DNA of 64,000 bases. It comes from Macrocystis pyrifera (taxonomy: Eukaryota > Sar > Phaeophyceae > Laminariales > Laminariaceae). Position numbers and translations under genes: made by a program. The stretch is taken from contig JASSKH010000016.1 of the NCBI GenBank assembly GCA_031763025.1, forward strand, positions 5,518,001 to 5,582,000, read 5' to 3'. Under the pieces are notes generated by a model. The model did no database searches. It saw only the letters and a program-made list of their open reading frames with translations, and had not been told where the DNA came from. Below are positions 9,155 to 64,000 of the stretch, piece by piece (the first letter of the stretch is position 1; the number at the start of each line of letters is the position of its first letter).

Positions 9155-10239
9155 ATCGGTGCTCCGTCTCGAAAGGGATGCGTGGTCAATGGTCAAATGA
9201 CTAAGGCAAGCAACAAATGAGTACGCCCCCCCCCCCCCCCCAATCGCCTCGTAACCAGCCTACCACGTACAACACAAAACACAAAACACAAAACACAACC
9301 GATAACAACAGCAGCAGAACGAAACAGCCACAAAAACGGGATACACCAACCCACCTTAGGATGCCCCGCAACCGACTCCCCGAAGCGCACGACGGCTTCC
9401 ATGCCCTCGACCCCCGGCCCAGGCTTGTTCAGCACGTACGGACACCTTATCCTGTCGTCCCCTGTCGCCAACATTAGAGAATGCATGCATCAAGACGAGC
9501 GAAATGTGGGGTAGTACCCGAGTCACCGGTAAGACACTGATTGGACCGATTGGTTGATGTGTTGGCTACAAAATTTGTGCGGTATCTGTTTTGTACGATA
9601 CTGCCTGATCACACCCCGGTGATAGGATTTCACCCTCGAAAGGGATGCGTGGTCAATGGTCAAATGACTAAGGCAAGCAACAAATGAGTACGCCCCCCCC
9701 CCCCCCCGCCCCCCCGGGTGTTGGGATAACGCACCTGCTGGGGCGAGCGACGTTTTTTCAGAGCCGAGTTTCTTAAGACTACATGGGGGGTACGTACTCG
9801 TACATACAACGAGAATGGTGGCTTTCGGAAATATGTCGTCGAGATGTTTAGATAGGCGCGTCGCTGGGCGTATTGAGTACGCCCTCCCCGTCGTGGAGAC
9901 AAACCAGCTTCGAGAATCGTCCGAGGGGGTGTTGTGCTATCGCTCCACAGCGTGGCTTGTACGGTGTTATGTCGTCACGCGGTGTTGTACGGCGGCATCT
10001 TGCCGCGCGTGTTCTATCATTCGGCGATGTTCAAACTTATTGGTTAAACCGATTGATGCTTGACAAACAAAAAAGTGTGAGGTCTCTGTCCGAGCGATAC
10101 GAACGTCGGACTGACGGGGGTTGACTAACCACTTGTGCGTCACTATGAATGGGGGTAATGTTGTATTGTGGATGAGACGGACATAGCTAACCCCAACCCT
10201 AATCGAACTAACAATGGTTACATGCATACGAACCGTTGT

Positions 10240-27300: not shown

Positions 27301-30300
27301 GTTCGTAATTCAACCTACTTGGCCCCTTTCGGACTGCAGCCCCGTTTTGGGCTCAAAGCACTTGAAAATAGAGTGGTTGGTCCCGCAACGGGACTGCAGG
27401 GCCAAAAGGAACGACACGCATCTGGATGTATCATATGCCAGGTAATGGTTCATACGTGGTACCAGGTAATTTGGGGCAGTCTCTCCTGAATTACTCGTAC
27501 GTGAAATAATATACAAGAGTCACGGTGGGGGAAGATACGGTGTCGGGATTGATGTTTGTGGATGACTTCGTGGGGATATCAGAAACACCCGGAGGATTTC
27601 AGAAATGAGTAGAAAGGCGCTAGAATACACTAGGAAGTGGAGGATGACGGCGTGCGCAAGGAAGGGCGCAATAGTTGCGTGTAACGAATATAAGGTGAAC
27701 CCGGTAAATTCCAGTTGGAAGTGGGGAGAGATGAATCGCAGATCGTAGATCAGTATACTTACCTTGGCGTAGAGAGCTCGAAAGACTGCTCTTACGATAC
27801 ACATATAGCGAAAGTAATAGGAAAGGGTAAAGCACACGCAGGCAAGATGGATGCGATCCTAACAGACTCGCACCTGGACACTAGCATTAAGAGATGTATC
27901 CTGATGAATGTGATTGTACTAAAGCTAGAATATGCAGGAGAAATATGGAAAGGGAACGCGAAGTTCGTAAAGCAACATTGGCACAGATGGCGGAAGCTAA
28001 AAAAAAATTAAGATGCTCAAGTACGATGGGTAATACCGTATTAAGAGCAGAACTGGGAATGTACCCGCTTGAGACAAATAAAGACATGAGAAAGTTGACA
28101 TTAGGAACACGCTAAAAGAAAGGTTGCCAGGCATAGTTAATAGAGCTGTACGGGACAAAGTGACGAAAGGGCGAGCTGGAACAAGGTGGGATAGCGTAGT
28201 GGAGAAAGCATGGAAGGATATTGGAGGAAACAAAAAATAGATGATGTCCACCGATAGTTTTGGGAGGTACGAAACATAAAAAGAAGAAGGGATAAAAAGA
28301 AGGGAAAGGTTAGCGCTAAGAAACAAGATGAAATCGTAGAGAGCACTCAGAGATATACGGGGGATTAAGCGAAGGAATTAAGAATGAGAAATTATTTGCG
28401 CGGCCCAATGGATTTCACGAAAACGCTGACATTGCGATTTCGAGCAGGGGACCTGCACCTCCCAGAATGAAGTAAGAGGTATACGAGTAGCCGGGAGGAG
28501 GAGGAAGTAGATGCACAGGTGTGTCCGTGTGGCAAAGCAATAGAGAGTAGAGCTCACACAGTAGGAGAATGTGAAATGTGCAAGGAGCAACGGGATGTGC
28601 TAGAAGAGGGGATGAGGGAAATAGACGAATGTGACAGGGAGGAGTTTGATACACTAGTTAGCAGCGAGAAAACGATCGCTATCCTAGGAGATAGATGGTG
28701 GCCACAGGAGGCGAAACAGGAAGGCTAGCAAAAATTGTTTGCCAGGCATGTAGTAGATGAAAACAACGTAATGGGCGCCCAAACGTTGGAGGTGTCTCTT
28801 GAAGGAGTAGGAACGGTGCTTCGTCTCGAAAGGGATGCGTGATCAATGGCCAAACGACCGAAGCAAGCAACAAATGAGTACCCCCTCCCCCCCCCCCCCC
28901 CCCCCCCCCCCCCGGCCGCCCGCCCCACCCTTGAAAATGGCATCTCGTGCTGGAATAAACCCGACTCGAATGGAAGGTTATATTGTCTCCAGAGTCTTGG
29001 GATCTGGCCTCGACCGACTTCGTGGCGACCAAGACACCTCAGGTGCGGCAGGGTAGATGTATCCCTGACCTGATCTCCACCGTCTGGCTTGAAGTGGAAG
29101 CCGTGTATATATAGATAGTCTGCATTATCTACTTTTTTCAGTACACGTTTCCGGGGTTTTGATCTGTATGGAATATCGATTGCACAACATCTCGAAACGG
29201 CAGAGCGCGGGCTCAGATGATCCGGATCGTGACATGTTCGATGCGTGAAAAGCTTCATCATCTAAAAACTTCAAAGTGTGTTCGGATGCACTGGTGGTAC
29301 CACGTTTCCCTTCGTGCGCCCGACTGGACCCCTAGCGGTTGGATGAATCGTCGTCGTATAGTAGACATACTCTCGAGGAATCCTGCGCGAGGTTTGCGCT
29401 CGTCGTCACAGGCAACAACCCTCTTGTATACCAGGTTATCCAATTCTGGTGCGGTACTTGCGACTGATGGCTCGTTGCGTCCAGGGCCTAAAATATATAT
29501 ATATATACCATAGCCCGGACGTAGTACCGGCCCCTTGCGCACTGGTACTGACTACGGTGCATGTAGTAGTTTGTTTTTGTTTTCTTCGATCGGGATGCTT
29601 TGTTGTTTATAGCGTGTTTGTGACCATGGGCTAGGTTTCGAGCAAACGAGGCCTACATGTACAATATTTAGTAGTGCGAAAACATCATCATCACTATCAT
29701 CACCATCATCATCACCATCAACTGACTTACCGTAGTCCTATTTACCAACCGCACGAAGACATGCGAAACGTAACCCCTAAGCTCTAAGTGAGGGGATAAA
29801 GTAAGCCAAAATAGTCAACAACAAAAAACACATGTCGAGCCACACAAACAAACGGGCTAGTGAGATTAGATGGATGCCAAACATGCAGAACTCCGCCAAC
29901 AAAACTTAAAACAGCACTCAGCTCACTATAATTTACTACTGGTGGTATACACCAGCAGCCAACTAATCTACAGTCGGCGACTGACAGCACGCGGCTAAGC
30001 TATGTATACACCAGTAGCCAACTAGTGTCTTGGTCGGCATGTTCTCGTCAGCCAATTTCACACGCAGCCCTACGCAGTACTGAATATTGACTACGTACCC
30101 GGCATTGAAGACCTCACCCATCGGGCAGATTGCCTTTTCCCACCTCATGATCTAGACACTTCAGAGGGCGGGTAGATTCCAGATCTATATGATCTGATCT
30201 GCTGCTGTAGCGCATGTTTTCGGGTGGGAGCCGTACAACCTGGTTGATCTAACACCATGTTTCCAGATCCTGCACAACATCTGAAACGACAGATTAGGAT

Positions 30301-32921
30301 TTACAGTTGATGATTTAGATCATTTACAGTAGATCGTGATCTATCTGTGCGACATGTGGAATAGTTCTCCCTTCAGCTACTCGAAGTCAGTCACGACCAT
30401 TGCGCAAACGTTCCCCTCCCTGCCCCCCCGCTGCGCGAATCCCCCCTCCCCTATCCCCTATTATATATTGTATAGGTTGGGTTAGCGTCGGTTGGCAACG
30501 ACACTGTAAAACATGCCGCCCACTACGTGAGCTAGACATTCAGGGTACCGTTTTTTTTTTTTTTTTTGGCGGTTGCCCACAGCTGGTCGTCGAGTTAGAT
30601 CATTTGTGCGAAGTAAAGAACTTTTACTCTGCACAGGAGAATTGATCGTATCACGTAGTGTTCAAGGTAAGGCACCCAAGAGGCAGTTACATAGTACTCC
30701 CGTTGCTGTCTCTGGTAGTGGCCACACCGGAAATTAAACTAACTCATTGAAGCTGTCATCCATATGCAAGTCCGCCTCACAAGCGGTTCTTAGTAGGATG
30801 CAGCTCACCCTTCATGCGATTCGCCGGACACCTCACGGCGCTTCGCGCTTGGTGCAAACAATGTCTGCCTGGTCGGTGAAAACCCGACATGCTCCGTCCC
30901 GGCATTGTAGGGATGCGAGGGTCTATGGCCATACGACTAAGGCCATGCATGAGATCGAGTACATATCTCCTATCGAGTATACCCCCCCCCATGCATGAGA
31001 TCGAGTACATCTCTCCTATCGAGTACCCCCCCCCTCCCCTTTCCTCCCTTGCGCGCTTATCAAGGGCAATTGGCTGCTCAAAGAGCCGAAGGAAATGTAC
31101 GGGTCGCCCCCCCCGCAATTACCCGACTCTAGAGCGTCGTCTCCGACGAGAGAGTCCGGTGTAGGCCTGTCGGGTTCGGTTGCCGGAGCACAACCTCCGA
31201 AGCGGCAGCGCGGGTCTACTGGGGATACACCGTCACTCGCGGAGGGCACCCCCAGGCTTTCGCGCCGACACCGGGCAGGATGTGAGCTAATGTCCCTACG
31301 TAAGGCTGTGTGAGTGGGTTGGTTGAGTAGAGCTCGAGGACTACTGGGCTGTGAGCTTGACTGGGCTGTGAGTTTGGCTGGGCACAACGGTGAGTTTAGC
31401 TGACTACAAGTGACTGGACTGACCAAACTCGTTGTTGGTCCGGCTCGTATAGGAGTACACTGCGGTTAGCTGCGTCATGTGTATTGTTTGGCGGAATGAT
31501 TTGTTTTTTTGGGTGTATCTCGCTGAAACGGCTGTTTTGTGTGGCTCCGCACGTGTTTTTGTGGTCGTTGAGGAAGCCTAAGTCAACTACGAAAAATGAC
31601 TTGAATCACCACCCCACTAGTAACTACAATAGATGGTTCACGTCACCAACCAACTACCAGGTAATAACTAGTTGGTTAACCCCGCCACCCGACTACAACA
31701 GTGAGGCTTTCCCGAAAAGGGACCCACCCTGCGGGCGTCCCCTCTTTTCTGTTTCAGATCACTGTTGTAACATCGCGTCGTTGGTTAATTCGTACATAAT
31801 TTGGGATCAGTGAGGCCTCTCTGCTGCGGCATGAGATCACACCCATACTTGTCGACCCTTCTCGTGTCTCAATGTCGTCGCTCGCTTGACTCGTATCCTT
31901 TCTGCGGGTTCCCTCTCTTCCTTATTGTCCCCAAAATTATAGCCTAGCTGATTAGGGGTTCTTCTACCGTTGATTGTCCCTTGGGAACATCGTGTACGAT
32001 TTTCCAAAGCCCTTCGCGAGTGATAAGGCGCTTAGGTGTGCGATTGCGATGTGAGGCACCCGGGAACGTGTCTACCTGGTAGTCGGCACGTAGCCTTTCG
32101 TGGCGTGTCTCCATGTGGTTCTTCCGGAACTAACATACGCTCATGTCGTGCTTGAGGGGCGATAAATACGGAGCTTTCATGTCGGTGGTTTCCCAACACT
32201 GCCTTTTCCCAGATACCGCAGCCCGAAACCACCCTAGCTGCCGATCGGCTTCTCCGCGGAGAGGTTTGTGTCTGTACCTTCAACCCTCTCGTCGTCCCCT
32301 CATAAAAATACCACTTTTGAACTTGTAGGTGGCAGGTGTGGGTGGGTAGACACGCCCGGCCCACAGCCGAGACCAAACCGGTAGGGCTGTGGGCTAGCTA
32401 AGCTTGACGACTGATTGTTACGTGGGCAGAGAAATTAGCTAACCAATTTCCAAAATATACTTGGGGCTGTGAATCGGCCGTGTTCACCGATATGTTACAC
32501 GTCGGTTTTCAGCGCAGACGATATATAGATCCGATATGACGGCGACAGCGACTCTCAGTGGCTCCTTGTTCTGAATTCTGCTTTACGATTAGCTGGTTTT
32601 TACTGGCCAACGAAAAAAAAAAAATCATCCAGCGCTCCCTTCTGACGTACTGTACTGCTGAGTGACGGCAGAAATACGAGAACACACAAAAAATCTTAAG
32701 AGTTTACTCCTGAGAAAAATATCCCGCGTTTTGTCAAGTGTTTGTCTTTTTCTCCTGGTCAGCCGGTTTCCCTGGTCTTATCTCTGCTATGGCCTTGAAT
32801 CGGATGGTCTCAAAATGGGTACACCACCACTTTGCCAGGTATAGGTGCAGCCCCCTTTGTCGAAGCGAGCATGCGTCCAACTCGGAACCCCCCCCCCCCC
32901 CCCCCCCCCCCCCCGCCCCCC

Positions 32922-32952
<31 letters not shown>

Positions 32953-35900
32953 CACGATGCCCGTTCGGCCCAACACGTATGTAGCCGAGTCCCCTAGGCC
33001 TCATACGGCGTTTGCGGGGGAAAAGACCTCCCGAAATAGCAGCCCTGTGAGTGTTGGCGGTGGGGACAGTAGTTCTATGACAACGCCGGTCCGAAAGAAA
33101 GGAAAGAAGGACGTCTCCGGGCGGTGGGACAGGTCGACAACGGTGAGTGATGAGGCGCGAGATTGTTACTGTTTGATTCCGCAAAGAGCACATGCCAGCT
33201 TCTAATTTCCACCGCGCCAAAGAGAAGGTACTCAGTGCGTGCATATAGAGCAGTAGTTCCCCCTTCAAGATCGTTGTACCGTATGTATGTATACGTACAG
33301 CAGCACGTAGCACACTAGGTCTCCGTCTAAAAACCGCGGTACATACAAAGGCTCCGAAAAAACGAAATGAAGCCCAGGGCCCGGCGACTTTCGTTTGTTT
33401 TCGCGAAACAATAAAAACTTTTGCCAACGCATAGGTACAAGTTGGCGATTGACGACAGTTACACACATACGTACATAATAGCTTGCTGCGCGAGTTTCTA
33501 GCGAAAGCGCTCGTCGGTTCCATCGTGGATGAGCGTGGGGCGTTAAACGAGGGACAAGAACTGCCTCACCACTATTAATAGTTATAGTTGATACGTATAT
33601 ACCAGGTGCCGGTATCGTTTTGCTTACCTTTCCGACATCGGGCAGATAGATGACGATACAGCAGTAGATGACGATCTGTGATCTGCTGTACCCGGGTAGA
33701 TCCTACCGTATACCTGGTGTATCATGCGTTTGCCATTAAGAGATGTTGTACAGGATCTGTGCAATAAAGTACTTATCCACCCCAGGAACCAAGTATGTGC
33801 TATGTATGTAGATCGTGCACGTAGACGATACGGCGTCCGCCGTGAAACACGGTCTAGATCATACTGGTACGTACGGTACAACGTACAGGTCAGGAAATAT
33901 ATATCTGCCCCGAAATATGTACCTAATTGAGTGGCAATCGGTGATATCTGCGAATTTGTGGACACCTCAAATCTTCGGCGTTGTCCAGACCAAAACGCCT
34001 CAAGATCAACGATAAAAGCAATCCGCCGGTCAACAAGCTCTAGATGTTGCGCATTTCTCAAGTGTGCAGCAGGCAGCCTAGGACCTCGGACGCCGAGTCC
34101 TAAAGACCTCGGACGCCGAGTCCTAAACACCATTTATGAGCTACTGTGCACCCAATAACAGAGGGTGTAGCTTACTGGTATAGCTTAGCACGTTTGGAGA
34201 ATATGGTTGACACACAATGTGCACGAGACAAATAAACTACCCCGAGCCCTAACGCTATAAGCCAATCAGAGCAACCCTATCCCCGACCCTAAGCCAATCA
34301 GATCAAATCTCGAACAAGTGTTAGGCCCTACTAAACAAACAGCCCATTTTCCTAAATTGATAATTGCCTTTCCGACGAGACCGAGAGTCGTTTTTTTTAT
34401 TGTTTTAAGAGTTGCATTCCTGCCTTATAGTATAGTCATTTTGTTAATTTATTATAGAATATATGTGCATAGATAGGTATCGATTCCACTATAGAAACGA
34501 AAACGAAAATCAGCCTCTATGAGATTCGTGAAACAGGGGATGTGAAAGTTTTGGTACGTAGGGGGGCGGGGGGAGGCGCGTGTATGACGATTTTCTTGCT
34601 TCTTCGAAATCTCCAAGACTGCCAATGCTGATTTTGACTTTTATTGGTGTCGTGAGGGAAATACTTATCTTAAAAAACAACCTCAAACACAAAAACGAAA
34701 AACACGTTTTGTTTATCACCCTCGTCGTGACGGCAATTCTCAAAACTACGAAAATCGGTTGTTTACTTCTGAGAAAAAGCTCATGTGACCCCCCCCTCTA
34801 TGGTCATACGACTACGGCCATGCATGATGATGACTACACCCCCCCTCCCCCCCTCCCCCCCCTCCCCCCCCCCCCCCCCCCCGCCGGCCGCTTCCCGCGC
34901 GCAATGATGCCTTCCAACTCTCGTTTCTTTTGTGGACAACATTTGAAGGATGATGACGAATCAACGGTGACGGCAGACCGAAACCCTCGAGCTTTCTCCA
35001 TTTCACGCCAGGTCAGTTCGGCCCTTCGCAGGCTAGGCTGCCTCTGCGTTTTTACGACCGAACAACGAGATAGCGACTTACACGGCACTATTCCTTTTAT
35101 GACCGAGAAGCGAGTCGATATTTTTTCACGGAGAAAATTGATTAGAGATATCGGGAACCGTCAAGGAAAAAATCTGTTGTTTGTTGTTGTAGGGAGAATC
35201 AGGTGTTTGGTTCATGTCCTGTAGCCGAAGCTGCTTACGTTGGTGGTGTAGCAGCGTGGGCATTGTTCTTGTTCAACGAGAATGTTGCTAGAGATCGGGG
35301 AACCAGCTCGGGAATAATCTAGATTGTGATGTTTTGCTGGTGCAGATAAGTTTCGGCGTTTTTGGTCCATAGTCGCTTCAGAGTTCACTTTGATGACAAG
35401 CAACCACGCGCCATTTTTTTTTTGGTTGATATCGCGGCTTGGATGGGAGAGAATACCAAGTGGGTGCAGCACGGGACGATGCCGAGGCAGACTGGTACAA
35501 CTCGTGGACAGACAGAGCTGCTGCTTGTAGATGGCCGGCGGTAGCTGGGCCAGGTAATTCGTGATTTCTCGTCATTTTTTTTTAGTTTCATTGAATAATT
35601 GACCGACCCCCGGGGTATTAGTTTTTTATTACGAGCGAGAAGCGAGATGGTAAACTACACGCCACTGTTCAGTACGAGCCCTGGAATGGGGCTTCGTATA
35701 ATACGGTCGGGTGAAGTGGAGGAACTATTAACATGTAATTATCTCATAAAAGGGAGGACGAAGAAACCATTACACGCACGTAAGACAGCATGCAAGCTCA
35801 CTCCTGGACGAAAGCTCGAGTCCTTTTTTCTCGACAAGCAGGGAGAGGAGTAAAAGCCGAGCGACGATGCGCCTGTATGGAGATATCTCCACGCGATCTT

Positions 35901-38900
35901 TCTGGAAGCCATCCTTTCCGTTGTGTGTGTAGGTCTGCCCACCATGTTTGGGAGAAAATCGGCTCAGAAATTCGTTCCATTTTTTTTGCGTTGTTCCATC
36001 CCATTTAATATTTTCGTCCTTCCTGTTCGTCCCCTTCCTAGTCGTATCTTAGATCCGAGAGGTCACAAAGCAGCCTCTTCTCCCTTCTCCCCTCCCAATT
36101 ACGGTTCTTGCGTTAGATTTTTATCGCGAGAAGACTTCGACCCTTTCTTCCCTCGTCGACTAATCGAATTTCACCTACCCACCCTACTGTTACTAGGCGC
36201 TCTCAGCATTTGATTCCGTTTTTTCATCCAATGCGGGTGTATTATCTTGCGTGTTATAGCCGTAATATACCGCAGTAAGTTTTTGTTTTAGGATATTATT
36301 GGGGAAAATCTAAACATCGATAAAATGTGCAGGGGGGAAGGAAAGGAAATGTGAGCGCCTGTTCAGTCGCAAACACGGGATCCGCTCATGATGCCCCCCC
36401 CCCCCCCCCCGCCCCTCTCCCCATGGTCATACGACTATGCACGGCCATTGCATGACAATGAGTAGCCCCCCCCACTCCCTCTCTCCCTACCGCCAACGCA
36501 TGACAATGAGTACCCCCCTCCCTCCCTACCGCCCTACCTCCCTGTGTCACTTCGCCTTTGCTACGGCTTGTCCTTGCGCACCTCAGACACTCACGGTCAC
36601 CCATAACATCAGCACATCACCGGCTATCTCCGACAAACACCGGGCACAAGCTAGCGAATATCTGGCGAAATACATCAAGGTGAACGCCGACATCTAAAAA
36701 TGAGCCGTGCTGCGTAGCTTCGGTAGGGGTTGACCTTTGCGATCTGCACATTTCTCTGTGATGATGATCTAATCTCGTCTCCTCTGTCCAGCGTGTGATT
36801 TATGTTTTTATCTCAAAGCCTGTTGCATATGTCGGCCCCGTACGACGGAGGAGAGGTTGAGTCCTACAGTAGCAAAGTTTTGCAGACGAAGCAGATCTGT
36901 GAAACAGTCTGCGAGATGATCTGTGCGATCTATCTGCACAGGGATCTGATCTGATCCGATCTGATCTGATCTTTCCGACTTGTGAAACGTTTTTTTTTTC
37001 GTAAAACAAAACTCGTTACGCGTGCAGGCCCAGTACGACGGAGGGGTGGAGAAGTCCATGACCAACCTGAGCACCGCCCTGCGAGGGTACACGCAGGAGA
37101 GCGCCAGGTGGGCAAGAGGGCTCCACCTACGCTCCTTCTATTTGATATTTGTTTTGCGTTACAGTAGATAGCCCGCTCGGAGGGGCCTTATCCCCCTCTT
37201 CGGAGACCCTATTAACGGTGCGTTCGGGAATGGAACTCCCTCACATAGGTACCAAGGCCTCTTGTCAGAGGAGTTGGCACTAGCCCCTTGCAGCCGGCAG
37301 TAGCGGGCACAAATGGTGAAATTCGAACTCCATAACATACCTAACAAAAGGACTACCTGCTGTACACCTCCCATTGTCGCCGCCGTCTTGAGAACAATCC
37401 ACACACCGGACGGATGCGATAGATCATTCCTCATTGCACGATCTAGACCTTTCCGAGCAGATTTTGATCTGTATAGTCGGTATGATCTAGCTCGTGTTAC
37501 TGGCGGCCGAGAGCCATACAATCTACATGATCTTTAGGACATGCTTCCGGAGTTGGATCTGTGCTATGCAGATCCTGCACAGAACCTCATAACGGCAGGG
37601 TAGGATCTAGATGATCTATCTGTACGATAGACAGATGGTGATCTGTTCGACGTGCTTAGCGTTCTAACTGAGGTTAAACGCTTAAAAACCCTTGAGTCAC
37701 CCTCTGTTTTTCAGGTCTCTTTACGGGTCATGACCCCAACCTACGGGTCGGGTCAGGCACTTTTCGAAATCTCACGGGTCCAGTTGGGTCCGGTCCGGTC
37801 CGGTCGGGTCGGGCCGGGTCGGATCGGGTCGGATCGGGTAAGGAGGTTTTCAGTCTCTCTCAGATCGAGGCAGGTCACCCTTACCCGATCCGAACCGGCC
37901 TGGTCCGCGAGGTTTGGCCCGGCCCGTTAACCACCCTATTTGTGTAGTGTACCGCACAGAAACCTGTAGGGAACGGCGGTACAATAGATATACCAGGTAT
38001 AGCTTAGACACAAAAAGACAAAGCACGACGACTCACATCCGACGGTAGACGGCAGGCGGCATGCCCATCAAGGAAAGTTGTAGGGCCGAGTGTTTACACA
38101 CTAAAAACCTACTGGTACCCTTCTGTCCCGACAGATGAGGCCATTTTGTAGTAAACATCCAGATTTCATGGTAGTAAGTTTGGCGTCAGTCAAGGGAAAT
38201 CTTTGTGGCCTCGGATCCGAGCTACGACTACGAGGGGAGAACGAGAAATAAGGGCAAATGTAAGTAGTACCTGGTAGTTGGGAAGAAAAAGGAGAGAGGA
38301 AACAAAAAAAGGGAAATTATGTTGGGAAATATTTTGTCTTGTCAAAAAAAGCGGGCGAAAGTACCGTTCCTCTTGACATCTTTGCATCCAATCTTCTTCG
38401 TACCACCCGCCCGCCCGCCCGCCCTCTCGTGGACTCCTTCCCTCCTTACTCCCCTCCTCCCTTCCTTTCTTCCTTCCTTCCTTCCTTGGAAGGCACGCCA
38501 TCGAGAGCGATACGGTCAAGTATTTGGCCGAGATACGCTTCGTGACAACGATCTTCGTCAACATATACGGCCTGGAGGACCAGCTTAAGACCGGAGGGGG
38601 GTTTCTACTGCAGCAGGCATGTTAACATGTTAACCCCATTACAACTATTACGGGGGAGCGTACATAGTAGTCCAAACCGTAGCAGGGGTATTTTGGTGGG
38701 TAAACGAGTTCCTTAACGCCTTGAGTTAGTATTAATTATTGAAAAAAAAAAAGTAGAACATCATACGGTTTTGTAAACGTTGGGGGATGATGTGGTTTTT
38801 TGGGGTCATTCGCGGGTTTCGATTTAAATGCATGCCCCCCCCGTAGTAACTGCAGCAGGCGTGTTTTCGAGGACCAACTACTTAGGGTTAATGTGCGTTC

Positions 38901-44900: not shown

Positions 44901-46019
44901 GGCTAATGCAGTAATCAGAACCTACGATGGAGCGAAGAACCATGTGTCCCCCTCATGTGTCCCCCTAATGTTTACGCACTATATTTGGTTCTGATTACTG
45001 TGTCCGCCCGTAGAAATAGGAACCAGGAAACAAGTTTCAGGCTGGCTTTCATAGTTGAAAAGGCGTAGCGATGAGAAACAGGAATTTGTATTTTTCCGGG
45101 TGGATTTCTTGTTTGAGAATGGGTGCGCTCTACACGAGCTTCAGGATAGCGATCCTCCGAATCTCAGCCTACTTTTTTGTACTAGGTGTCTTGCGCTGTG
45201 CTTGGATGCGACTTGAAACCCATTTATGATTGCAAAACTTATCCCGCACCACAGTAATTCCAATTAGGATGCCCTCCTCAGAGTGTAGGCAAGCGTTTTA
45301 CGCACAAGGTGCCGAAGTGCGCCTCACAAGCGGTTCTAAGTAGGATGCAGTTGACCCTCCGTGCGACTCGCCGAACTACCTCACGACGCTTCGCTTGGAG
45401 CAAGTGGCAATGTCTGCCTGGTCGGTGAAAACCCGACGTTGCTCCATCCCGGCATTGTAGGGATGCGAGGTCTATGGTCATACGACTACGGCCATGCATG
45501 ACAATGATTTCCTCCCCCCCCAACGGTTAAAGGACTAAGGCAAGCAAATAATGAGTACGCCCCCCCCCCCCTCGAAAATAACTTAAATCATTGAAGCTGT
45601 CATCTATGTATAATTCCGGCTCACGAGCGGTTCTTAGTAGGCTGCAGCTCACCCTTCATGCGACTCGTCGAACACCTCACGGCGTTCCGCGCTTGGTGCA
45701 AGAAATGTCTGTCTGGTCGGTGAAAAACCGACGTGCTCCGTCCCGGCATTGCAGGGATGCGAGGGTCTGGTGATACGACTACGGCCATGTATGATAATGA
45801 GTACCCCCCCCCCTCTTGGCGATACTCAAACCTTCCCGGCTGCACACAAGCAGGTGGACTTCGAAGTTTGGTCACGCGCATGCAACTTCTTTAACTTCGA
45901 GACCTTGACCCCCATCAAGGCCAAGGGATACGTCGACCCGGTCCCGGTGTTTAGGCCGCTTGGGCAGGCGCTCACGGACGATGATAGCGAGGTACGTCGT
46001 AGCCACGTTTGCCATTTGT

Positions 46020-46054
<35 letters not shown>

Positions 46055-49000: not shown

Positions 49001-50236
49001 TTCACTGCTGCAAAAACGATCCTGTACTAATTCCCCGAGTAGGTGATCTTCAAAGAACGTCGGCGCTGTTCCAAAGCGGGGGGGGTAGATGTCTACAACG
49101 CCTCTCGCATGTGTCAATAGTTGCGCGATGATACAGGTGCGATGTGTTCCTTGTCTGGTCGCTGCCTAACGTGGAATGCATCTCCCCCTCTCCCTCCTTC
49201 CCTCTCTCCGTCCCTCCTCCCCCCATCCCTCTCTCTCGCGCCCTGTTTTCCCCTCCCGGCAGCCGTCAACAGAAAAGCCCGCCACCTCCCCATCCTCACC
49301 CAGAACGTTCAAAGTCTCCTCAAGACTCTTGAAGAAGGGATCCCCGAGCAAAAGTCAGCAGGCGCCCTCCCTGGCCGGCGTCACGTCCAGAACTCCGAGC
49401 GACGGGCTGAGCGACCGGGCGATATTGGGAGGCGGAGGAGGGGCTACTTCTTCACCCATCTCGAACGACGAAGACGACGGTAATGCTGGTAGTGTCGGTA
49501 ATATCGGCGTGAATGACGATTCGATGCGCACGAAGAACATTTTTAAAATTATGCCGGTAGAGACACATACTATTGTACCTGGGCGCACGTCGTTTCGAGA
49601 CTTGGGCATCCGAAAACGTACAGCTCGGAGCTCTCACTAGAAAATAAAGGAATGCATAGGGGCTGCAGTTTTGAACGTCGTTTATTTAGACCACGTGACA
49701 TCCTGGTAAAAAGTACACAGCCAGAGCTCTCGGTAGTAGGTTAAAAAAAAACAAATGCAAGCCTGAACTCCCTCCAAATCGCTATGGCTCAAGTCTTAAG
49801 TCTTGTTTTTAGAAGCGTGATATTCTATATAATGTACAGCCGGAACTCTAGGTAGAGTCTCAAACACGCGAATACAGCTGGAACTCCTCCATAACGCCAC
49901 GAACTAACGAATGGCTATTTTTGTTTTGGCTTGTCGGGGCGGAGGATGGACGACACACATGCATATTGTTTTTCTGGTTCCGGATACGATACGCAAACAA
50001 AAAAAAAAACTCCACCGTTAGAATTATATAAAACTCTAGAGAGGAAGATTTTTCCGAGCCTTTACGCCGAATTCAACATCGCGATGTTCGCACACGCAAA
50101 TCCCTCGATATAAAACTCAGTACCGTTTTTTTTTTTGGCCAGAAGAACGTGAGATATAAAACATGGGTAAAATAAACATAGTCAGCTAGTCCACACACAC
50201 ACATGTAGAACACCTCATGGACTGGAGGATGTGGCA

Positions 50237-50287
<51 letters not shown>

Positions 50288-53200: not shown

Positions 53201-56200
53201 CTACGAAAACTTGGTCCTATTTACTATGGTCCCCCGTAATAATAGACGATATAGATCATCTAGATGTTCTACCTGACCTATCTGTCCGATGCGTGAAAAA
53301 TTCGAACGCCCCCTCCCCCCTCCCTCCTCCCCCCTCCCTTGACCTAACACCCCCTTGCTGCAGCAGGCACCAACAGCCGTTCGCACAACCAAATGCGCGG
53401 GGGTGGCCGTCTTCCCCCAATACATTCGTTCGTGATGCCGCCGCTGGTGCGACGGGGGAAGGGAGTGGTGGGGATGGGGCGGGGGTGGACGCATCAACAC
53501 GAGATTCTGCCCTAAACCGGAAATCAACCCTCTCGAGGGAGGGCTCAAGTGAGGCCGCCCAGCTTAGCGACGGCGACGCGCTGTCGGGCTTGTCGCGCCA
53601 GAGCGCGCTAGACCGGACCAACCCCGATCAGGAGCAGCCGACGCTCCAGAAGATGGGAACGGGAGACTCGACAGGGTCGGGAGGCGGCGCTGAATCAGAA
53701 GGTCTTTTGGGTAGACCCGTCGTTTCCAAGCAAAGGAGGATGTCAAGGATTGGAAGGACGTCGTCCGAGGTCCCCGTCCCTGTTGCGAAGGAGGCGGGGG
53801 GGGGGGGGGGGGGGGGGGAGGAGACGTCCTTCTCAATATCTGGGTATGGGCAGTAACGGTGCCTCGTCGCCGTCCGGTGGGGATAGACGAAACTTGCGGG
53901 ATAATATCGGGAAAATGAGCGCACTAGCGGTGGCAAAACTTCGGGGGGGGGATCAGGACATGGCTTCATCGAGAAGGTCCATCGCTCCGAGAAGCGGGCT
54001 GACGCACAGAAGGTATGTATGGCCCTTTACCTCTACCGATATATTTTCGTTTGTTTGTTTGTTTGTTTGTTCGCTCGTTTGTGTACTTGTTTCGTATTGT
54101 TGTTGTTGTTTTTTTTTTTTTTTTTGCCTGTTTTTGCTTGTTTGTTCGTTGGCTTCTCCATCCCATCTAGTATTATCATCTTCGCCCCATGTACCGCTCC
54201 AGCTTTCTCTCCCTTTCGTAGCATAGCAGGCACTCCCCCCCCCCCCCCCCCCAACACTTAAAGGCGCTTCGCGCTTGATGCAAGCAATGTCTGCCGGTGA
54301 AAACCCGACGTGCTCCGTCCCGGCATTGTAGGGATACGAGGGTCTATGTTCATACGACTACGGCCATGCATGATAATGAGTACAAGCCCCCCCCTCTTAT
54401 AGTGGGATACAACTCACTCTGCATGTGATTCTCTGAGCACTGCAGGTTTTGCTTCGCGCTTGGAGCAAGCACCAATGCCTGCCTGGTCGGTGAAAACCCG
54501 ACGTGCTCCGTCCCGGCATTATAGGGATGCGAGGGTCCTATGGTCATACGACTACGGCCGTGCGTGACATGAGTACCCCCCTCCCCTCCCCTACGTACTA
54601 CGGTGCGCGTGTACTCCGTACACTTGTGTTGATAATTGTGTTGGCAGTCCTGATTTTTGCGGTTTTTTTACTCGGAACCGTTGTTTGTGCCGACGTTTCC
54701 TTCGTTACCCTTTACAACATAGGTGTGCTACTATAATGGTTGTTGCACATCTTGGCCGAAATATTTCTGACAGACTGGGGGGCTATCCTCGACTAGAGAA
54801 CTACCCAATGTCGCTGAGAATGCGAAGCATTATTGAGCGAAGCAGTTTATGTGCTTTTAATTCATAAAGGACGAACTTCATGGTTGATTCTCATGCTGAC
54901 GGAAGGGCGCACTGACGGAGATCTGGAACTAGTACACCAACATGCACGCGAACGAGCGAGTGTACTCCTCTGCCCCCAGTGTCTCACTCACAGCCACGTG
55001 GGCATAGCAGACACACACGGGCGAACGCCACGACACTACCTTCAGTTGGTGTAGATTGGCCTAGGAGCTAGGCTATCGCTGTAGACAGTTCTTGTGTTTA
55101 CACTATTTTTCGTAGGCTACGTATTGAAGGCCACGGGATCGTTCATGGGGTTAAGTTTTCGTTTTTTTAATCTCAAAATCAGTTTTCTAGGCGAAAGTAT
55201 ACAGCTCTCCAAGAGAGGAAAAGCCTCAGAATAAAAAAAGAAAGATAATAATCTTACCGTGGCACAGCAGCGTCTCATTCGTACCGAGTACCTTTTGGCA
55301 AGTTCCCCAATGAAGCAGTGTTACGGCAAAAACAAGTTCCAACCCAACCGGCCGTCTATACTCCCACCCACCCTCCCTCCCTCCCTCCCTCCCTCCACCG
55401 TTTAATCTGTAACAACAAAAACGCTATTAATAGGAATATGTGCCCCAAGGGTCGCGACCCCATCTGCATAGCTTGACCGCTTACATAGACATATCGCACC
55501 GAGCGCGTATGTGCACCATTTGCGAGTAGTCCTCCAATCTCCAATTTGAAACAGAGCGTGTTACGGAGAAACCAACCCAACCCACCGTCTACCCCCGCCC
55601 TCCCTCCCTCCCTCCCTCCCTCCCTCCCTCCCTCCGCTAACAACGTGCAACAAACAAAAAACACCACCCCAGGGGTCGAAACTCCATCTCGCTTGAGCGG
55701 TCTACCAGGGGAGTAATGTCGCGGAGGGATCCGGTTTCCCGAAGAGCTCCTATGACCAGGCGAGTCGCCCAGCGCTGTTGCTGCTCTCTCCCACTGTAGG
55801 TCCCAGAGCTTATAGACTGGACTAGATAGACTGGGCTAGATATACTGAACTACATAAGCTGGATAGACACCTGCATTTTTTGGGGGAACGTATCGATCGG
55901 GGTATACAGGCGTCGGCATAAATATAGACTTTAAAGTAGCTATTATTACGAGCCACAAAACGCGCCAGTCAGACGCAAAATACACAGAAACTCCGCTAAA
56001 TTCTACCGCGAGCGGCCGACCGTAGCACCTAGCCAAACTATATATTACGCCCACTTTTGCTCAAAAGTCAACTGACAGCCTTGGTTAGCGCTAGTATATA
56101 GTCCCCGTCTGGCACGAGCAGCATCCGTGTGGAACATTCTAAGCACCTTATTGGTGTTGTTTACCCTGCGCTGTGGGCATGTGTTTGAACGATCAGGGGT

Positions 56201-59200
56201 GGCTCCGGGGACGCGGGCCCAGCTGACGGGGCGGGACCCGTACTAGCGGCGCAAGTGCTGAAGGATAAACATGCCGTGAAGGTGAGACCGCGTTTATTCG
56301 GTTGGGGGGTGGGATGCGTACGTATCACCCATACCAGGTAAGGCTCATCCCATGGTAGCGCTTGCGCTTTCATAGCTCAACAATTTCCGGCCGGTTTAGC
56401 TTCATCAAGTGAGCATCTACCGGTTAGTACGATTGTCTTACTCTGCCTGGGGTTTCACGTAGAATATGTTTGTTTTACGTGTAGGACTATTGCGTAGCAA
56501 AGAGAAATGTTGGCCGCGGGTGGCGCGTGAACACAGACGTTGTTCGGATTCTTTTTTTGGGCGACGATATTAAGCTCCTTCTGGTGTGAAAAGCTCAGAA
56601 CATAAGACGCCGCCCCTGTATGCCGTGGTGGCATTGCTCGTATATTTCATAAGGCCTCCTCCCTTGAGGAGCGCCCTCTACCGTCCCCACCCAACACCCG
56701 AATTTTTTAAGGAAAAACCAAAAACGTACGCTGTAGAACGTTTACCTTTCGGAAGGCTTTTCGACGTGGGGGTGACGCAAGAATAACCCCGATGACTTTT
56801 ATTGGTGGAGCTAAAAACCAACCAAAGACCCGCCAACCGTTCCAATTTTGAAGCCTATACAGCCCGAACTGATGAAAAGTGCATAACGACCAGCGAAGGA
56901 AAATTGGCACATATACACAGATGTCTGGGACTTCCCCGCCCCCCTGCACAATGTAGGCGTAACGCAAAACCGTTCTCGTGGAGAGATACTGAACAAATGT
57001 AGCACACCATTAGGCGCACCGAATTGAGAGGTTGTCGACCGATACCTTTGTGGGAATTTGCTACGTTGTTCAATGTCTCCATAAGATTTTCTTCATGTTC
57101 GGCATTGTTCAGGTGGGCGGCACCTGTGTACCAGTATGTATACTACGCCCGATACACATTCCCACGGAATTGTACCCCTCTGAGAGTAAATATAAGGACT
57201 ACTTAGTTTTAGTAATAGTGTCTACACGGTCCTTATATTCCGGCCCAGAGTGGTTCTGCAGTTGAGGAGGCCTGATTTTTTTTTGCTTAAGGCCTTGAGA
57301 CCGCAGTCCCGTTTAAGGTGCAGATTACTTGGGATTGGAGTGGTATGAGTGGTTTGCCCCCAAAAAGGGACTGCAGTTCTTTAAAGGATTAAGTAAAAAC
57401 GAAATGTGACCCAAACCGTAGCACAAAAAACAAACTTCCGCATGTAAAGAAAAATATTATTAGGGATCGGGAACCGATATGGTAATAATCTGCAGTTCGT
57501 TGTTGTAGAGAGAATTGGGCCTCATGGTTCATATTCTTCAGCTGAGTGCGTATTAGTAGTAGCTCACTTTGACAGCAGCAGCTGGCATTGCATGGTTGAT
57601 CGCGTTTGTGGGAACACCAAGTGGATACCGCACGAAACGGTGCAAGCAGACTGGTAGAACACGCGAACAGACAGGGCTGTTTGCTTGCAGCTGGACAGCG
57701 GTCGCTCGCTGGGTCGGGTATTTCGTGAATTCTCGCGAGTTCAGGAGCTCATCTCTTGAGGTTGGCGAAAGATGAAAGCACATCGGAGTTGGAGTGCACA
57801 ATACAAACAACTTGTTTAATGTAACACATACGAAATCACACCAACAACAAAATGTAAGGAGCACACAAGTGTTGGACGTATCACTCTATCGAGAGCAGGA
57901 ACGATGCTTTCCGTCTCGAAAGGGATGATGCGTGGTCAATGGTTAAATGACCACTACGTAAGGCAAGCAACAAATGAATACGCCCCCTCCCTCCTGCCGC
58001 AACACGGGATCGTGAAGGGTTACAGACTAGGGTTGGAGCACGAGATGCTCTGTAACCAGACCCTAGGTTTGCATGCATGCATGTTGCTTTGTTCCAGCCT
58101 TGCTGCCGGCGCCCAACACTCGAAATATCGTACAGCAGCGCGGACACCGGTATGTATGTGTAACTCGGAAAGCCAGAGCCTAAAACGATTCGTCGTGCCC
58201 AAACTAAAACGACGGCACTTGGCCAAATTTCGAAAAGTGGTACCAGGTACATCATTACCGACCCAACGATGGTACATCGCAACCGGTCCAAAGGGAGTAC
58301 CTGGTACGTCGTAGCATGCTAAAAAATATAGTACCAGGTACACCAGTAGCGGTCCGCCTATAGTGCCGATTGAGCAGTGCCGGCTGCTCGCTGTAGTGGT
58401 GGTGAAATCGATTGACACACATGGAATTAACCATTACGTGGGACCATAGTAAATAGGACCAAATATTGTTCGTAAAAATACCTAAATATATAGGTTTTTA
58501 TGTATGCCATAGGTCCTATTAACAATAGACCCCCGTGATAGTGTGGCCTTGTGCGGAGTAGTGCCGGCTGCCGCTATAGTGCCGAGATTGTTGGCTGGCG
58601 CACACCGGCACTTTAGAGCAACTGTCGCTGTATGTCGAAATCGACCCAAGGACGGTTGAGGCAACCTCAACCCATCTCTACATGAGGGGACACGTACGAA
58701 ATCCGAGACGTGTTTATGACAACCGGTGCATCCACGCACACGCTTGTATCGAAATATCACTGAATTAAACAGTCGCGGGCGCTTTTCTGTCGAGACGAAC
58801 TCTTGCCCACTATGTATATACAGGGAGTACAGCTTTCTGGATGACACGCTTTGTACTGATGGCTGTGTGCCGGCCGGTCCATCAATCTTCTTGCCGCGCT
58901 GTGCGGGGGGCATGCCCTTACTCAGCGAGGACCGTCACCCCCTCGCCCTGCCCCCTCCCCCGCCCCGCCCTATGGCCATAAGACTTCGGCCATGCATGAC
59001 ATGAGTGCACCCAACCCACCCCCTCTCCTAAACCCCCGCCCATCCCTTCGCCCCCCATCCTCTTCCCCCTACCCCCTTTCCCCCCCCCCCTCCCCTTCCC
59101 TTCCTCCCATTCCCCCCTCCCCCAATTCTCCCCTCTTACCTCCGTCGCCCCCTCCCTCCATCCCTGCCCCCCCCTTCCATCACTCATCTCTCCCCCCTCT

Positions 59201-62200
59201 CTCTCCTCTCCCCCCCCCCCCTCCCCCGCCACTTCGCCCCCACCCCATCCTATTATCGTCCCCCTTCCCCCCATTGGTAAACCCGATGGTCAGATGGAGG
59301 GCTTGGAGGCAATGAGTGCTGAAGACGTGAGCGGAGTGGGCCAAGCCGCGAAGATCATCGCGTGGATGCGCCGAGAGTGCCCGGACTTGGTGTCCGTGGC
59401 CCCGCTGCTGAAGGAGCTCAGGTTCACTGGGTTTTCAGACTCGAGGTTTGTGCGGCGAGTTGTCCTTTTTTTTTTGACAAAATATCTGAAAATTCTTGCC
59501 AGTTCCACACATGGGAACAGATCAGATCAGATCAAGTCAGATCAGATCGGATTCCCGGTTATTCATGATCTATATCGTTCATTTGCAGTTGTCGTCTCCT
59601 CAACCTGTGTAATCTATGGTAGCTCATGTTGGCGCGGGTGGAAGCTGTGAATTCTGCATGATCTACTCTAGTAGCACATGTCTCCTGGGTCGATTGTGTA
59701 TTACATAACAGATCTTTGCACAGCACATCATGTCAGCAGGTTAGTACCGGCATCGTCTAGGTCATAATCTGTCCTATGTCATGATATGCCCGATGTATGG
59801 ATAGTTCGTCATATTATGAGTAATTTTTAATGGAGACGGTGCGGTCAGAGGAAAAACAAAAGCCAATTCGAGAAACAAAGTACAAGGAACTGATGGGGAA
59901 AATGTTTCGTGTGCGAGAGCGTGCCGAGTTGGGCGCGTTCGTTGGCGCTGGTAATCGAAGTGGGAAAAAGCTCTGGAAGGAACGATGTGAGAACGCCTCC
60001 ATTAGACTAGCGACTAGGATGCTTATTCGCTACGTGCAACGATTGCCAAACATGGTACAACCGCTACAGTATTTATCATCTTTGTCCCGTCCTCTTCCTG
60101 CAACCTGGAGCCCCCCCCCTCTCGCTGGGGGAGTTTGATACACCAGATAGCAGCGCGAAAACGATCGCTATCCTAGGAAATAGATGGTGGGCACAGGCGG
60201 CCAAACAGGAAGGGGGTAAGATTAGCGAAACATTTTCTATGTAGTATATAGAAATAAATCACCGCCCAGTTGTTGGAGGTGTCTCTAATAGGAGTAGGAA
60301 TGGTGCTCCGTCTCGAAAGGGATGCGTGGTCAACGGTCAAATGACTAAGGCAAGCAAGAAATGGGTACGCCTCCCCCCACCCCGCCCCCCTCTCGCTCAG
60401 GGCTCTAAACGGATGCGTGGCCAATGATCAAATGACTAAAGCAAGCAACAAATGAGTACGTCCCCCCCCCGCCCCCCTCCCCGCCCCCCGTGCCTCCTCG
60501 CGGGGATGGAACTCCGGAAGGGAAAATATTGAGCAAGAGACGCACGACACTTTAGTTGTGCATGTCCTCGTTTCGATTCGAAGCATATTAAAGTAGGGCT
60601 GTACGTGAGGTATGCCTCAGCTAGGCTTTACCGCTACTTGTTGTAGCACTTGGGTGACGAAGTAAGAGAACGACCTGATTCAGTCTTTATCAACTACGCA
60701 GCACGAGTCCCGACCCTGAAACGCGCTACGAGCGGTCAAGACTACGAAAAAAAAAAAGACGCACAAGTCAGCAAAACCTACCGCAAGCAAAATAAGCGTA
60801 ACAACCAACTACTATTACGCGGGGACCATAGCAAATAGGACCTACGGTACACACAAACTCTTAAATATATCCCTATTTTTACTAACAATAGTCGGTCGTT
60901 TTACTATTGTCCCCCGTAATACTAGACTAATAACATACCAGCTTACCAGGTAGGTGGTCGCTCGTAGTCAGCCAACTCCCAGCCCTCAAAACGTTCCACA
61001 CCTCGGGAAGACGATCAATGCTCAATTCATCATCTAGATATTTTTTTCGAGGCAGATCAGATCTATTCCTGATCTTGTCTGTATGTATGAACCCCGAGCT
61101 TGTTTTTTCGGAGGGGGGGGGGGAGACCCGAATGATCTGCAACTATCTACTGTCGCGTGTATCGATATATGCAGATCCTGCACAGCCTTTTGCTAGCGGC
61201 AGGAGGTGCGAGAACTACGGTACATATGCAGACGGTCTACAATAGGCCATGATGCGCCCGAGATGTGAAATATGTCTCCTTCCGATTTTTTACGCACAGA
61301 AAAATAGAACGCCTCATCTCGGTCGTTTTCCCAGAGCACCTCGTGGTCGGCCAGCCCACAGCTCAAACATGAACGTTTTCGTTCCCATGAAACGCCCCAA
61401 AACATGAAGTAAAAAAACGCCTCTTTTTCTCGCTCCCAGGGCAATTTCCGCCCTGCCCCCGGACGTGCGTCACCGCAACCTGGAGCGCCTGGTGGTGGAA
61501 GTGATACGGAGAGCACTGGGCCGACGAGGGGAAGCGGCTTCTGCTCATCATCGAGGACGCCCAGTGGATGAACCCGTACAGCATGAAGCTTCTCCTTAAG
61601 GCGAGAGAGGGAGAGAGGTCTTGTTAGGGGGGGGGTCCAGGGTTTGAAAAAGCAACCAAGCTGCTTCCTTAGCCACCTTGGTACTTGAGAGAGCGGGAGA
61701 ACTGACGATGAAAAAAAAATGCGAGTACTGCAGCGGCCATGCTGCGTGATCAGGGGGGTAGGGTTGGAGAAGTGAACAGCTGCTTCCTTAGCCAACTTGG
61801 GGGGACTTAAGAGAGGGAGAAAATCGATGATGAAAAAAATGACGATTTCAGCAGCGGCCATGCTGCGTAATTTGGATGGATGGTATTACATTTGGGCGTC
61901 CGAGTTACAACATGAGGAAGTCGTTTGTTGTACCCGTATTGCGGGACGCTCACGCCCCTCGTAGGTTGCTGCAGTAGCACCAAAGTTATCCTTGTCGCTA
62001 TCTCTCAAAAGGGCCCCCAGAGAGATAATGTTAGGGTCAGGGTTGGGGCACCAAGCGCCTCCTGAACAGGACTATCAAGGCCAAGAAGATTGATTGCTCA
62101 TCATTTTTTTTGTTTTGTTTCGTGCATCCACTTTTTTTCTCAACGTTACATACGAAGCTGTTTTTTGGGAGTGAGATTCGTGTGTGAAAAAAAAACAAAG

Positions 62201-63904: not shown

Positions 63905-64000
63905 AGAGGGAAGTGTGTGCGTGTGGCGTACTCATTTATTGCTTGCGTTATTCGTTTGACCAGTGACCACGTACTCCTTTCGAGACGGAGCACCGGTGGG
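63905..64000 (-). mobile_element. LINE 3' end, minus orientation, at the window edge
   Basis: On the minus strand it reads CTCCGTCTCGAAAGGAGTAC through GCAATAAATGAGTACG. The tail is no longer pure C. It continues to the window edge. Confidence 0.55.

Follow-up and report, generated by a model that had tools for sequence, protein, structure and literature searches.

The window, which here means the whole 64,000-nucleotide stretch of Macrocystis pyrifera DNA that was analysed, contains copies and fragments of two families, a LINE and a shorter non-coding family referred to as SINE-like (Table 1). The string AATGAGTAC, in which members of both families can end, occurs 11 times in the window compared to an expected 0.5 occurrences, and AATGAGTACGNCCCCC occurs 3977 times genome-wide compared to none for its reversed control.

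Table 1. LINE and SINE-like copies in the window, with associated C tracts and target-site duplications
Positions	Strand	Feature	Remarks
27510..28881	+	LINE copy, 5'-truncated, decayed	starts near position 3441 of 4829; ends AATGAGTAC; no upstream C run
28881..28913	+	C tract	at 3' end of LINE 27510 copy
9124..9154	+	31-nt C run	target-side, 5' of LINE fragment 9157
9157..9225	+	short LINE 3' fragment	C run on either side, the second at 9226-9241
9635..9692	+	short LINE 3' fragment	followed by C at 9693-9707; no upstream C run
5998..6036	+	LINE 3' tail fragment	then C run
6077..6138	+	LINE 3' tail fragment	
57851..57982	+	LINE 3' fragment	ends AATGAATAC; no upstream C run
60111..60126	+	target-site duplication, 5' copy	C9 + TCTCGCT, last T common with element
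60127..60369	+	LINE copy, 5'-truncated	with target-site duplication
60385..60397	+	target-site duplication, 3' copy	C6 + TCTCGCT
60403..60460	+	short LINE 3' fragment	
8455..8570	-	LINE 3' fragments	C run 8448-8455
63928..63995	-	LINE 3' fragment	then GCCACACG instead of C run
45521..45559	+	39-nt LINE tail	
30474..31025	+	SINE-like full-length copy	GGTTGGGTTAGCG... to TATCGAGTAC; last 46 nt tandemly duplicated
45315..45508	+	SINE-like copy, 5'-truncated	
45584..45804	+	SINE-like copy	ends AATGAGTAC + C10
54235..54252	+	C18 run	flush with 5' side of SINE-like copy 54253
54253..54383	+	SINE-like copy	between two C runs
54400..54576	+	SINE-like copy	ends CATGAGTAC + C
34789..34882	+	SINE-like 3' fragment (34797-34838)	C8 flush before, C-rich tract after
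8584..8737	-	SINE-like copy	ends ATAAGTAC + C
5668..5750	+	SINE-like 3' fragment	

The two families and their common 3' end

The LINE is of the autonomous type, is about 4.8 kb long (4829 positions) and encodes both an APE endonuclease and a reverse transcriptase (RT), with the APE located upstream of the RT but the two never found in one intact frame. The RT is identified by RVT_1 matches with E-values of 3.2e-29 and 1.2e-31, and in comparisons with solved chains it scores alike against R2 (best E 6.5e-20) and LINE-1 (best E 2.4e-19). The Exo_endo_phos domain is found above the cut-off in locus L075, which carries the 5' part of the LINE (E 1.8e-6), and below the Pfam cut-off of 24.5 bits in L074 (20.3 bits, E 0.0005); no solved chain in the PDB matched the APE piece at E 1. 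The copies combine a variable 5' truncation with a constant 3' end, and the same tail is present about 1.1-1.2 kb downstream in all 30 of the loci found by RT similarity (L039-L068), although in L055 it is partial.

Genome-wide, 3537 of the 4400 exact LINE ends are followed by one nucleotide plus CCCC, which is absent in the other 863, so the claim of the first-pass annotation that LINE copies end at a C tract is borne out. Its more specific reading, that the ends consist of AATGAGTAC followed by C, fits the LINE 27510 copy and several truncated copies but not the copy at 57851, which ends in AATGAATAC; the 27510 copy does run into C as described, but it has no G at this point, GAGTAC being followed directly by CCCCT.

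The SINE-like element is non-coding, dispersed and present in many copies, and it measures about 510-550 nt at full length rather than the 250 or so first proposed, the copy at 30740 beginning near 30474. Its exact core occurs 10,459 times genome-wide and its exact head 4190 times, with most of the reverse-strand heads located shortly after a C run, and the 40 scored copies are all at least 97% like the query. The copies at 30740, 45300, 45585, 54255 and 54400 and the minus-strand copy at 8590 do form one family, as had been proposed, but the ending AATGAGTAC attributed to all of them is found at 45584-45804 and is replaced by TATCGAGTAC at 30740, by CATGAGTAC at 54400 and by ATAAGTAC in the minus-strand copy at 8584. 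The AATGAGTAC at 45550 had been taken for the end of the SINE at 45300, but it is part of the separate 39-nt LINE tail, and the SINE has its own end, GACAATGATTTCCT plus C8, before that tail.

No tRNA was detected in the head of the element in 5 loci, no Rfam match came near its gathering score in 3 loci, and 2 of the 5 retained full-length copies contained no match to an A or B box (in the full-length set, L053 and L072 are one place and L051 and L052 are near-duplicates). A tRNA or other known RNA head was therefore dropped, and because these checks recognized no head of the RNA polymerase III type (tRNA, 7SL or 5S, with A and B boxes), the family is called SINE-like. The element also contains a long T run.

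The 90-nt consensus tails of the LINE and the SINE-like family align under strict scoring over 54 columns with 43 identities, yielding a score of 47 compared to a maximum of 29 in 5000 dinucleotide shuffles, and milder scoring extends the common tail to about 72 columns; the alignment of the SINE-b tail with the LINE tail covers 73 columns and scores 44 compared to a maximum of 31 in 5000 shuffles. Because the tails were chosen by their end motifs (36 LINE, 9 SINE-a and 24 SINE-b), their last letters are conserved by choice, and the alignment to the LINE tail was accordingly repeated for SINE-a without the last 9 nt; the score is then still 38, compared to a null maximum of 27. The two families thus have 3' ends that are homologous beyond a simple repeat, as in LINE/SINE pairs of the stringent type, over 54-73 columns with none of 5000 shuffles reaching the score. 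The link is considerably stronger than the 9-10 nt of common 3' sequence on which it was first based, and it does not depend on the terminal letters. A hairpin common to the LINE and SINE-like consensus tails is predicted; the proposal that covariation proves conservation of this stem-loop was dropped, as the signal in 18 tails, hand-picked from 42 unique ones, was at the level of shuffles.

The tails nevertheless mismatch at 11 of the 54 columns, which, together with a head that gave no tRNA, Rfam or A/B-box signal, is what might be expected if the SINE-like family were related to a different autonomous LINE whose 3' end is similar and were no parasite of the present LINE. This origin appears rather unlikely, since the SINE-like elements have not only the tail but also the C-tract target in common with the present LINE, and since most reverse-strand copies of the abundant exact head lie shortly after a C run.

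C runs at both borders of the insertions

Of the copies found, 113 retained a 3' end, and in 98 of them the sequence before the 5' boundary was 60 nt or longer; 2 of these were lost to short flanks and 3 to a missing 3' C run, leaving 93, and the removal of 2 duplicates of one insertion left 91. Since this set still counts one SINE of the window twice and L057 duplicates L049, at most 89 of the 91 are independent.

A run of at least five C on the element strand ends within 15 nt upstream of the insert at 75 of the 91 junctions, compared to 419 of 12,760 window positions (3.3%). When runs of at least six C in the 60 nt that precede the 5' boundary are counted, they are found at 76 of the 91 insertions and in 28 of 325 stretches located 300-600 nt further up, while the same 60 nt contain runs of at least six G, A or T at only 1, 3 and 4 of the 91 insertions, respectively. 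The upstream run recurs in every sampling subset (6/8, 34/38, 21/25 in the loci fetched by RT similarity, 7/10, and 7/10 in the window). Although 24 of 80 upstream C runs come after the end motif of an earlier element, the run is still present in 53 of 67 insertions once those into the tails of earlier elements are removed. Genome-wide, 1503 of the 2109 reverse-strand SINE-like heads have at least six C within 30 nt upstream, and 2 have a G run of this length. Both families therefore insert preferentially at C tracts on the element strand and have a C run on both sides; the 16 of 91 cases that have no C run within 15 nt upstream, the LINE 27510 copy among them, may reflect decay, rearrangement or true off-target insertion.

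The first-pass annotation regarded the C run as a tail belonging to the insert. On this view, the RNA would carry an untemplated or slippage-grown poly(C) tail for which a short CCCC in the target would be enough for pairing, by analogy with L1, in which poly(A) tails accompany A-rich targets. The 3' runs are in fact slightly longer than the 5' runs (medians 12 and 9), being longer in 43 pairs, shorter in 27 and equal in 5 (sign test p 0.07, Wilcoxon p 0.03), and some pairs differ strongly (9 and 42 in L044, 9 and 18 in L069), so some added C is possible. A genuine C tail is nonetheless improbable, because an upstream run with a median of 9, which exceeds the 3' run in 27 of 75 pairs, means that most of the C was in the target beforehand, and because a tail alone would not explain C ahead of copies that are truncated at the 5' end. 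The upstream runs, the strand bias and the target-site duplications that start with C rule a tail out as the principal source of the C. The idea that the RT adds non-templated C at the 5' end was also dropped: additions to the 3' end of the cDNA would read as G on the element strand, so by this reasoning the upstream C does not stem from them, and upstream G runs are nearly absent (the 2 reverse-strand sites above). The C run is thus mostly target sequence, which is in large part the outcome that the first-pass annotation had itself named as refuting its reading. What looks like a "C tail" is for the most part the site of insertion, and these families are unusual in their target rather than in their tail.

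Long homopolymers pose difficulties for assembly, and C lengths vary among the near-identical duplicates L049, L057 and L071, as they would if the runs were later microsatellite growth or assembly artefacts. This explanation is largely contradicted already and scarcely credible, because C lies at both borders despite differing 5' truncation points, in a strand-specific manner and genome-wide, and because the non-C flanks beside the C are also duplicated in some copies.

Target-site duplications and the proposed insertion cycle

Strings of at least 9 nt with at least 4 non-C letters are common to the two flanks in 11 of the 91 copies, compared to 0.53% of mismatched pairs (L011 is a doubtful member of the 11 and L026 perhaps another), and duplications of at least 7 nt are found in 14 of the 91, the weak ones being L011, where the string is an element end, and L017, L048 and L060, where it is either of low complexity or the start of an element. 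Among the 38 informative copies, in which 2-15 nt separate the C run from the boundary and no TATATA extension is present, 8 have a matching prefix of at least 5 letters immediately past the C run (0 of 2000 shuffles; null mean 0.18), while 28 match over fewer than 3 letters. In L005 (a LINE), L042, L048 and L068 the two sides have a flank in common but its spacing from the C run is unequal. The readable duplications begin with the C run. The flank comparison yielded no empty site among the fetched loci, but rather successive insertions into C tails: L073 and L066, which had been candidates, are 5'-truncated LINEs inside the C tails of earlier copies, and L014, which sits in a TA repeat, allowed no reading.

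The small number of readable duplications and the very broad range of run lengths accepted could also reflect endonuclease-independent capture by the LINE machinery at poly(G) breaks or exposed G-rich 3' ends, with no sequence-preferring nick, and G-rich tracts are known to be fragile. The near-absolute strand bias (1503 versus 2) is predicted by capture and nicking alike, but the LINE has an APE domain and the flanks are duplicated wherever the junction can be read, which makes capture at breaks very unlikely.

The observations are probably best explained by two non-LTR retroposon families with a common 3' recognition end and a preference for poly(C), forming a LINE/SINE pair of the stringent type that is primed from a nicked G strand. 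The position of the nick, the pairing between RNA and target and the mobilisation of the SINE-like family by the LINE are inferred from the junctions and tails. The APE endonuclease of the LINE would nick the G strand at a (C)n.(G)n tract, either inside it or next to it, and the G-rich 3' end would prime reverse transcription of an RNA ending in ...GAGUAC(G/A), which probably continues into C transcribed from the tract adjoining the source copy. Cutting of the other strand 0-15 nt past the tract would duplicate the tract and a few flanking bases, and the new copy, with C on both sides, would provide a fresh tract for the next insertion.

A more tentative extension of this two-family model, to which we give somewhat less than even weight, is that the LINE has neither a 3' UTR nor a tail of its own, its recognition end being its own coding end and its priming tail being borrowed from the neighbouring DNA, with the SINE-like parasite using the same cycle. 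Read-through RNA extending into the C tract of the source copy would then pair with a nicked G strand at the following C tract. If this is true, element and landing site propagate each other, producing chains of elements linked by C tracts throughout the kelp genome.

Comparison with known systems

Target-specific LINEs have been described, their targets reportedly being surveyed by Kojima and Fujiwara (2004), and so have LINE/SINE pairs. We know of no LINE/SINE pair with a joint preference for a C homopolymer, and none that jointly prefers plain C is found among the open-licence matches listed; the main text of the kelp assembly paper does not contain the singular "SINE" as a whole word.

In stringent pairs, as described for the eel UnaL2 and its SINE, for Bov-B and the Sauria SINE and for Chlamydomonas L1-1_CR and SINEX-3_CR, the 3' part of the SINE is homologous to the 3' end of the LINE (PMC3747384, PMC13295347). 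The 3' part of the kelp SINE-like family aligns with the LINE 3' end in the same way, but the described pairs terminate with A, TGTAA, CAA or another short repeat, whereas the kelp pair ends in GAGTAC(G/A) at a C tract owned mostly by the target. The common end of the Drosophila F element and the suffix SINE is, by the account in PMC1868783, coding in the LINE, and the common tail in kelp likewise lies in the end of ORF2 and includes the stop codon; suffix, however, supplies a poly(A) signal and site (PMC1868783), while the stop codon of the kelp LINE has only 4-5 nt after it, with a C tract next at 3537 of the 4400 exact ends.

Target-specific non-LTR elements are described in PMC4640811 as including some HERO families, Togen, which is specific for (TG)n and is grouped with RLE-type NeSL relatives, and members of the Tx1 and R1 clades. 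The kelp pair resembles the microsatellite-specific elements in inserting into a simple repeat, and the target-specific Tx1 and R1 elements carry, like the kelp LINE, an APE-derived endonuclease (PMC4640811); the kelp target differs in being a C homopolymer, the preference for which is common to the SINE-like family. RTE-clade LINEs and SINEs are reported to have a Tn-TA insertion signature in common, with a homopolymer near the nick (PMC13295347), but there a short T stretch lies some ten nt upstream of the duplication, whereas in kelp a longer C run lies inside it.

The kelp pair provides a natural case for asking whether the choice of target in reverse transcription is governed by primer-template pairing or by the endonuclease. 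It also cautions that a homopolymer at the 3' end of a retroposon is not necessarily the element's own tail, and it could account for the origin of many long C runs in the genome of a brown alga.

Target sequence at the element borders

The C tract at the borders of the LINE and SINE-like copies is mostly target sequence. The first-pass annotation had described the LINE as ending in a C tail, and a C run does follow most LINE ends, with any one nucleotide and then CCCC coming next at 3537 of 4400 exact ends (absent at 863); a run of this kind also lies upstream of most copies. In a set of 91 insertions (52 LINE and 39 SINE-like, at most 89 of them independent), a run of at least five C ends no more than 15 nt before the 5' boundary in 75, as compared with 419 of 12,760 window positions, and is missing in the other 16. 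Runs of at least six C lie within 60 nt upstream in 76/91 insertions and in 28 of 325 stretches taken 300-600 nt further up, while runs of at least six G occur in 1/91. The upstream run is found however the copies were retrieved (pattern-fetched 6/8, SINE-fetched 34/38, RT-fetched 21/25, other regions 7/10, window 7/10), and in 53/67 insertions once those into the tails of earlier elements are removed. Across the assembly (537,376,219 bases in 223 sequences; the giant kelp genome paper gives 537 MB, 35 scaffolds plus 188 contigs and 50.37% GC, PMC10498591), a run of at least six C lies in the 30 nt before 1503 of 2109 SINE heads, and a run of at least six G before 2 of them; only the reverse strand is counted, where each site gives one match, since overlapping starts inflate the forward matches. 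The assembly also encodes EsV_1_7 cysteine-rich domains, a family that is large in brown algae: 150 of 1585 candidates were scored and all 150 exceed the family cut-off, whereas 14 control genomes have none.

An end motif of an earlier element precedes 24 of the 80 C runs that lie within 40 nt upstream, so that copies form trains. In 75 pairs of runs, the 3' run (median 12) exceeds the 5' run (median 9) in 43 and falls short of it in 27, the two being of equal length in 5; homopolymer lengths in assemblies are uncertain. Comparison of flanks among the loci yielded no empty sites. Three loci (L049, L057 and L071) hold the same LINE insertion with both flanks alike (94-99%) and C runs of differing length; the similarity of the flanks indicates that the insertion was probably carried along by segmental duplication.

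Some insertions carry target-site duplications in which the C run is followed by further shared letters, although no non-C duplication is seen in most copies. Common strings of at least 9 nt occur in 11/91 own 5'/3' pairs (one, at locus L011, is element end, and another, at L026, is doubtful) and in 0.53% of mismatched pairs. Among the 38 copies with 2-15 nt between C run and boundary, 8 match over at least five letters directly after the run (against a null mean of 0.18, with none of 2000 shuffles reaching 8) and 28 over fewer than three. In four loci (L005, a LINE copy, and L042, L048 and L068) a flank is common to both sides at differing distances from the C run. In 36/91 insertions the run lies within 2 nt of the boundary, where a duplication consisting only of C is therefore invisible.

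Target-site duplications at four genomic loci and one window position; the final letters may be part of the element
Copy	5' copy	3' copy
L021	C14-TGCATAAAA	C10-TGCATAAAA
L024	C7-TGCATCGC	C7-TGCATCGC
L029	C10-TGGAACGGACC	C8-TGGAACGGACC
L069	C9-TCGTAACT	C18-TCGTAACT
Window 60127	C9-TCTCGCT	C6-TCTCGCT

The shared 3' end and the coding content of the LINE

The proposal that the LINE and the SINE-like family have a common 3' end is borne out by consensus tails of 90 nt built from motif-picked ends (36 LINE, 9 SINE-a and 24 SINE-b). The LINE and SINE-a tails align over 54 columns, 43 of them identical, with a score of 47 against a maximum of 29 in 5000 shuffles, and the alignment grows to 72 columns with milder scoring; the alignment of LINE with SINE-b spans 73 columns and scores 44, where the highest of 5000 shuffles scores 31. 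Removal of the last 9 nt of SINE-a leaves a score of 38 against 27, again in 5000 shuffles. The motif AATGAGTAC, previously put forward as the shared end, occurs 11 times in the window where 0.5 is expected, but several copies have other endings; genome-wide, the pattern AATGAGTACGNCCCCC is counted 3977 times and its reversal 0 times. Most copy coordinates of the first-pass annotation hold up, with the exception that the end credited to the SINE at 45300 belongs to a separate LINE tail of 39 nt. Folding of the LINE and SINE consensus tails predicts a similar hairpin; by pair counts, covariation in 18 tails is no greater than in shuffles.

When a 105-aa piece of the window LINE copy was used as query, the best 150 of 2727 candidate matches were scored, and in 30/30 loci cut out the same 3' tail follows some 1.1-1.2 kb after the point where the match begins (partial in one, L055). 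Two overlapping loci give a LINE length of about 4.83 kb. A frame of 856 aa at L069 holds RVT_1 (E 3.2e-29), and a second copy, L070, has a frame of 733 aa. An endonuclease domain of APE type is encoded in the 5' part (Exo_endo_phos; E 1.8e-6 for L075, under the cut-off for L074), and a search with it of the sequences of solved structures returned no chain; a 190-aa frame in the 5' part has no Pfam match. CCCC lies within 20 nt of the exact LINE 5' head at four places, a plain count rather than a fraction of all heads.

The ORF2 stop is a TGA within AAATGAGTAC; this leaves GTAC(G) as the 3' UTR and places the shared tail inside the coding sequence of the LINE. This TGA is kept in 26 of 38 LINE rows of at least 600 nt, and in 12/26 (two of these rows, L053 and L072, are one place) it closes a frame that is open over at least 100 codons, and up to 847, as against 2/26 for another frame. 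In two copies, L007 and L054, a long open frame lies out of register with the terminal TGA, as expected from frameshift in decayed copies. A C-x-C-x8-H-x4-C motif, spotted by eye, lies close to the protein C terminus.

The SINE-like family

Full-length copies have an A/T-rich stretch and GGTTGGGTTGGCGTCGG at the start, a long T run inside and GAGTAC(A) at the end. Of 1839 candidate places the best 40 were scored, and all match the query at 97% identity or more; the genome holds 4190 exact heads and 10,459 exact cores. The copies examined yielded no tRNA, Rfam or A/B-box signals, and the family is for this reason called SINE-like and not a strict SINE.

At its 3' end the SINE at 30474 carries a tandem duplication of the last 46 nt (window 30943-31034), with a short C run on each copy, and the end of a related subfamily resembles two successive GAGTAC ends (GAGATCGAGTACATCTCTCCTATCGAGTACA). 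Outside the window, five successive matches to the SINE head on the + strand are spaced about 11.1 kb apart (G000:C125:1,566,069-1,610,388, a contig interval), with more loosely spaced matches on either side, which suggests a tandem array of units of about 11 kb with one SINE copy each. The window also holds a 308-nt unit in two tandem copies (3297-3910, 91%) and a 38-nt unit repeated six times (24569-24802, 72% matches).

Known systems and a proposed route of insertion

Pairs of LINEs and SINEs with a common 3' end are known, and for suffix and the F element the shared end is coding in the LINE, as it is in kelp (PMC1868783). Target-specific LINEs are likewise known; some of them target microsatellites, and some carry an APE endonuclease (PMC4640811). 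RTE elements are known to have a homopolymer within an insertion signature common to LINE and SINE (PMC13295347). Repeat-masking fractions of LINEs and SINEs are given for another brown alga, Nemacystus decipiens (PMC6418280). The landing of both a LINE and a SINE-like family in C homopolymers is a combination that was not met in the open-licence papers searched.

Beside the observed shared end, target preference, strand, duplications in some copies and LINE coding content, a mechanism may be proposed in which the G strand of the target tract would be nicked, its G-rich end would prime reverse transcription, and C carried by the RNA would pair with the target. More boldly, since just 4-5 nt separate the ORF2 stop from the element end, an mRNA that has 3' sequence at all would run into the adjoining C tract, and might in this way gain its stretch of C.
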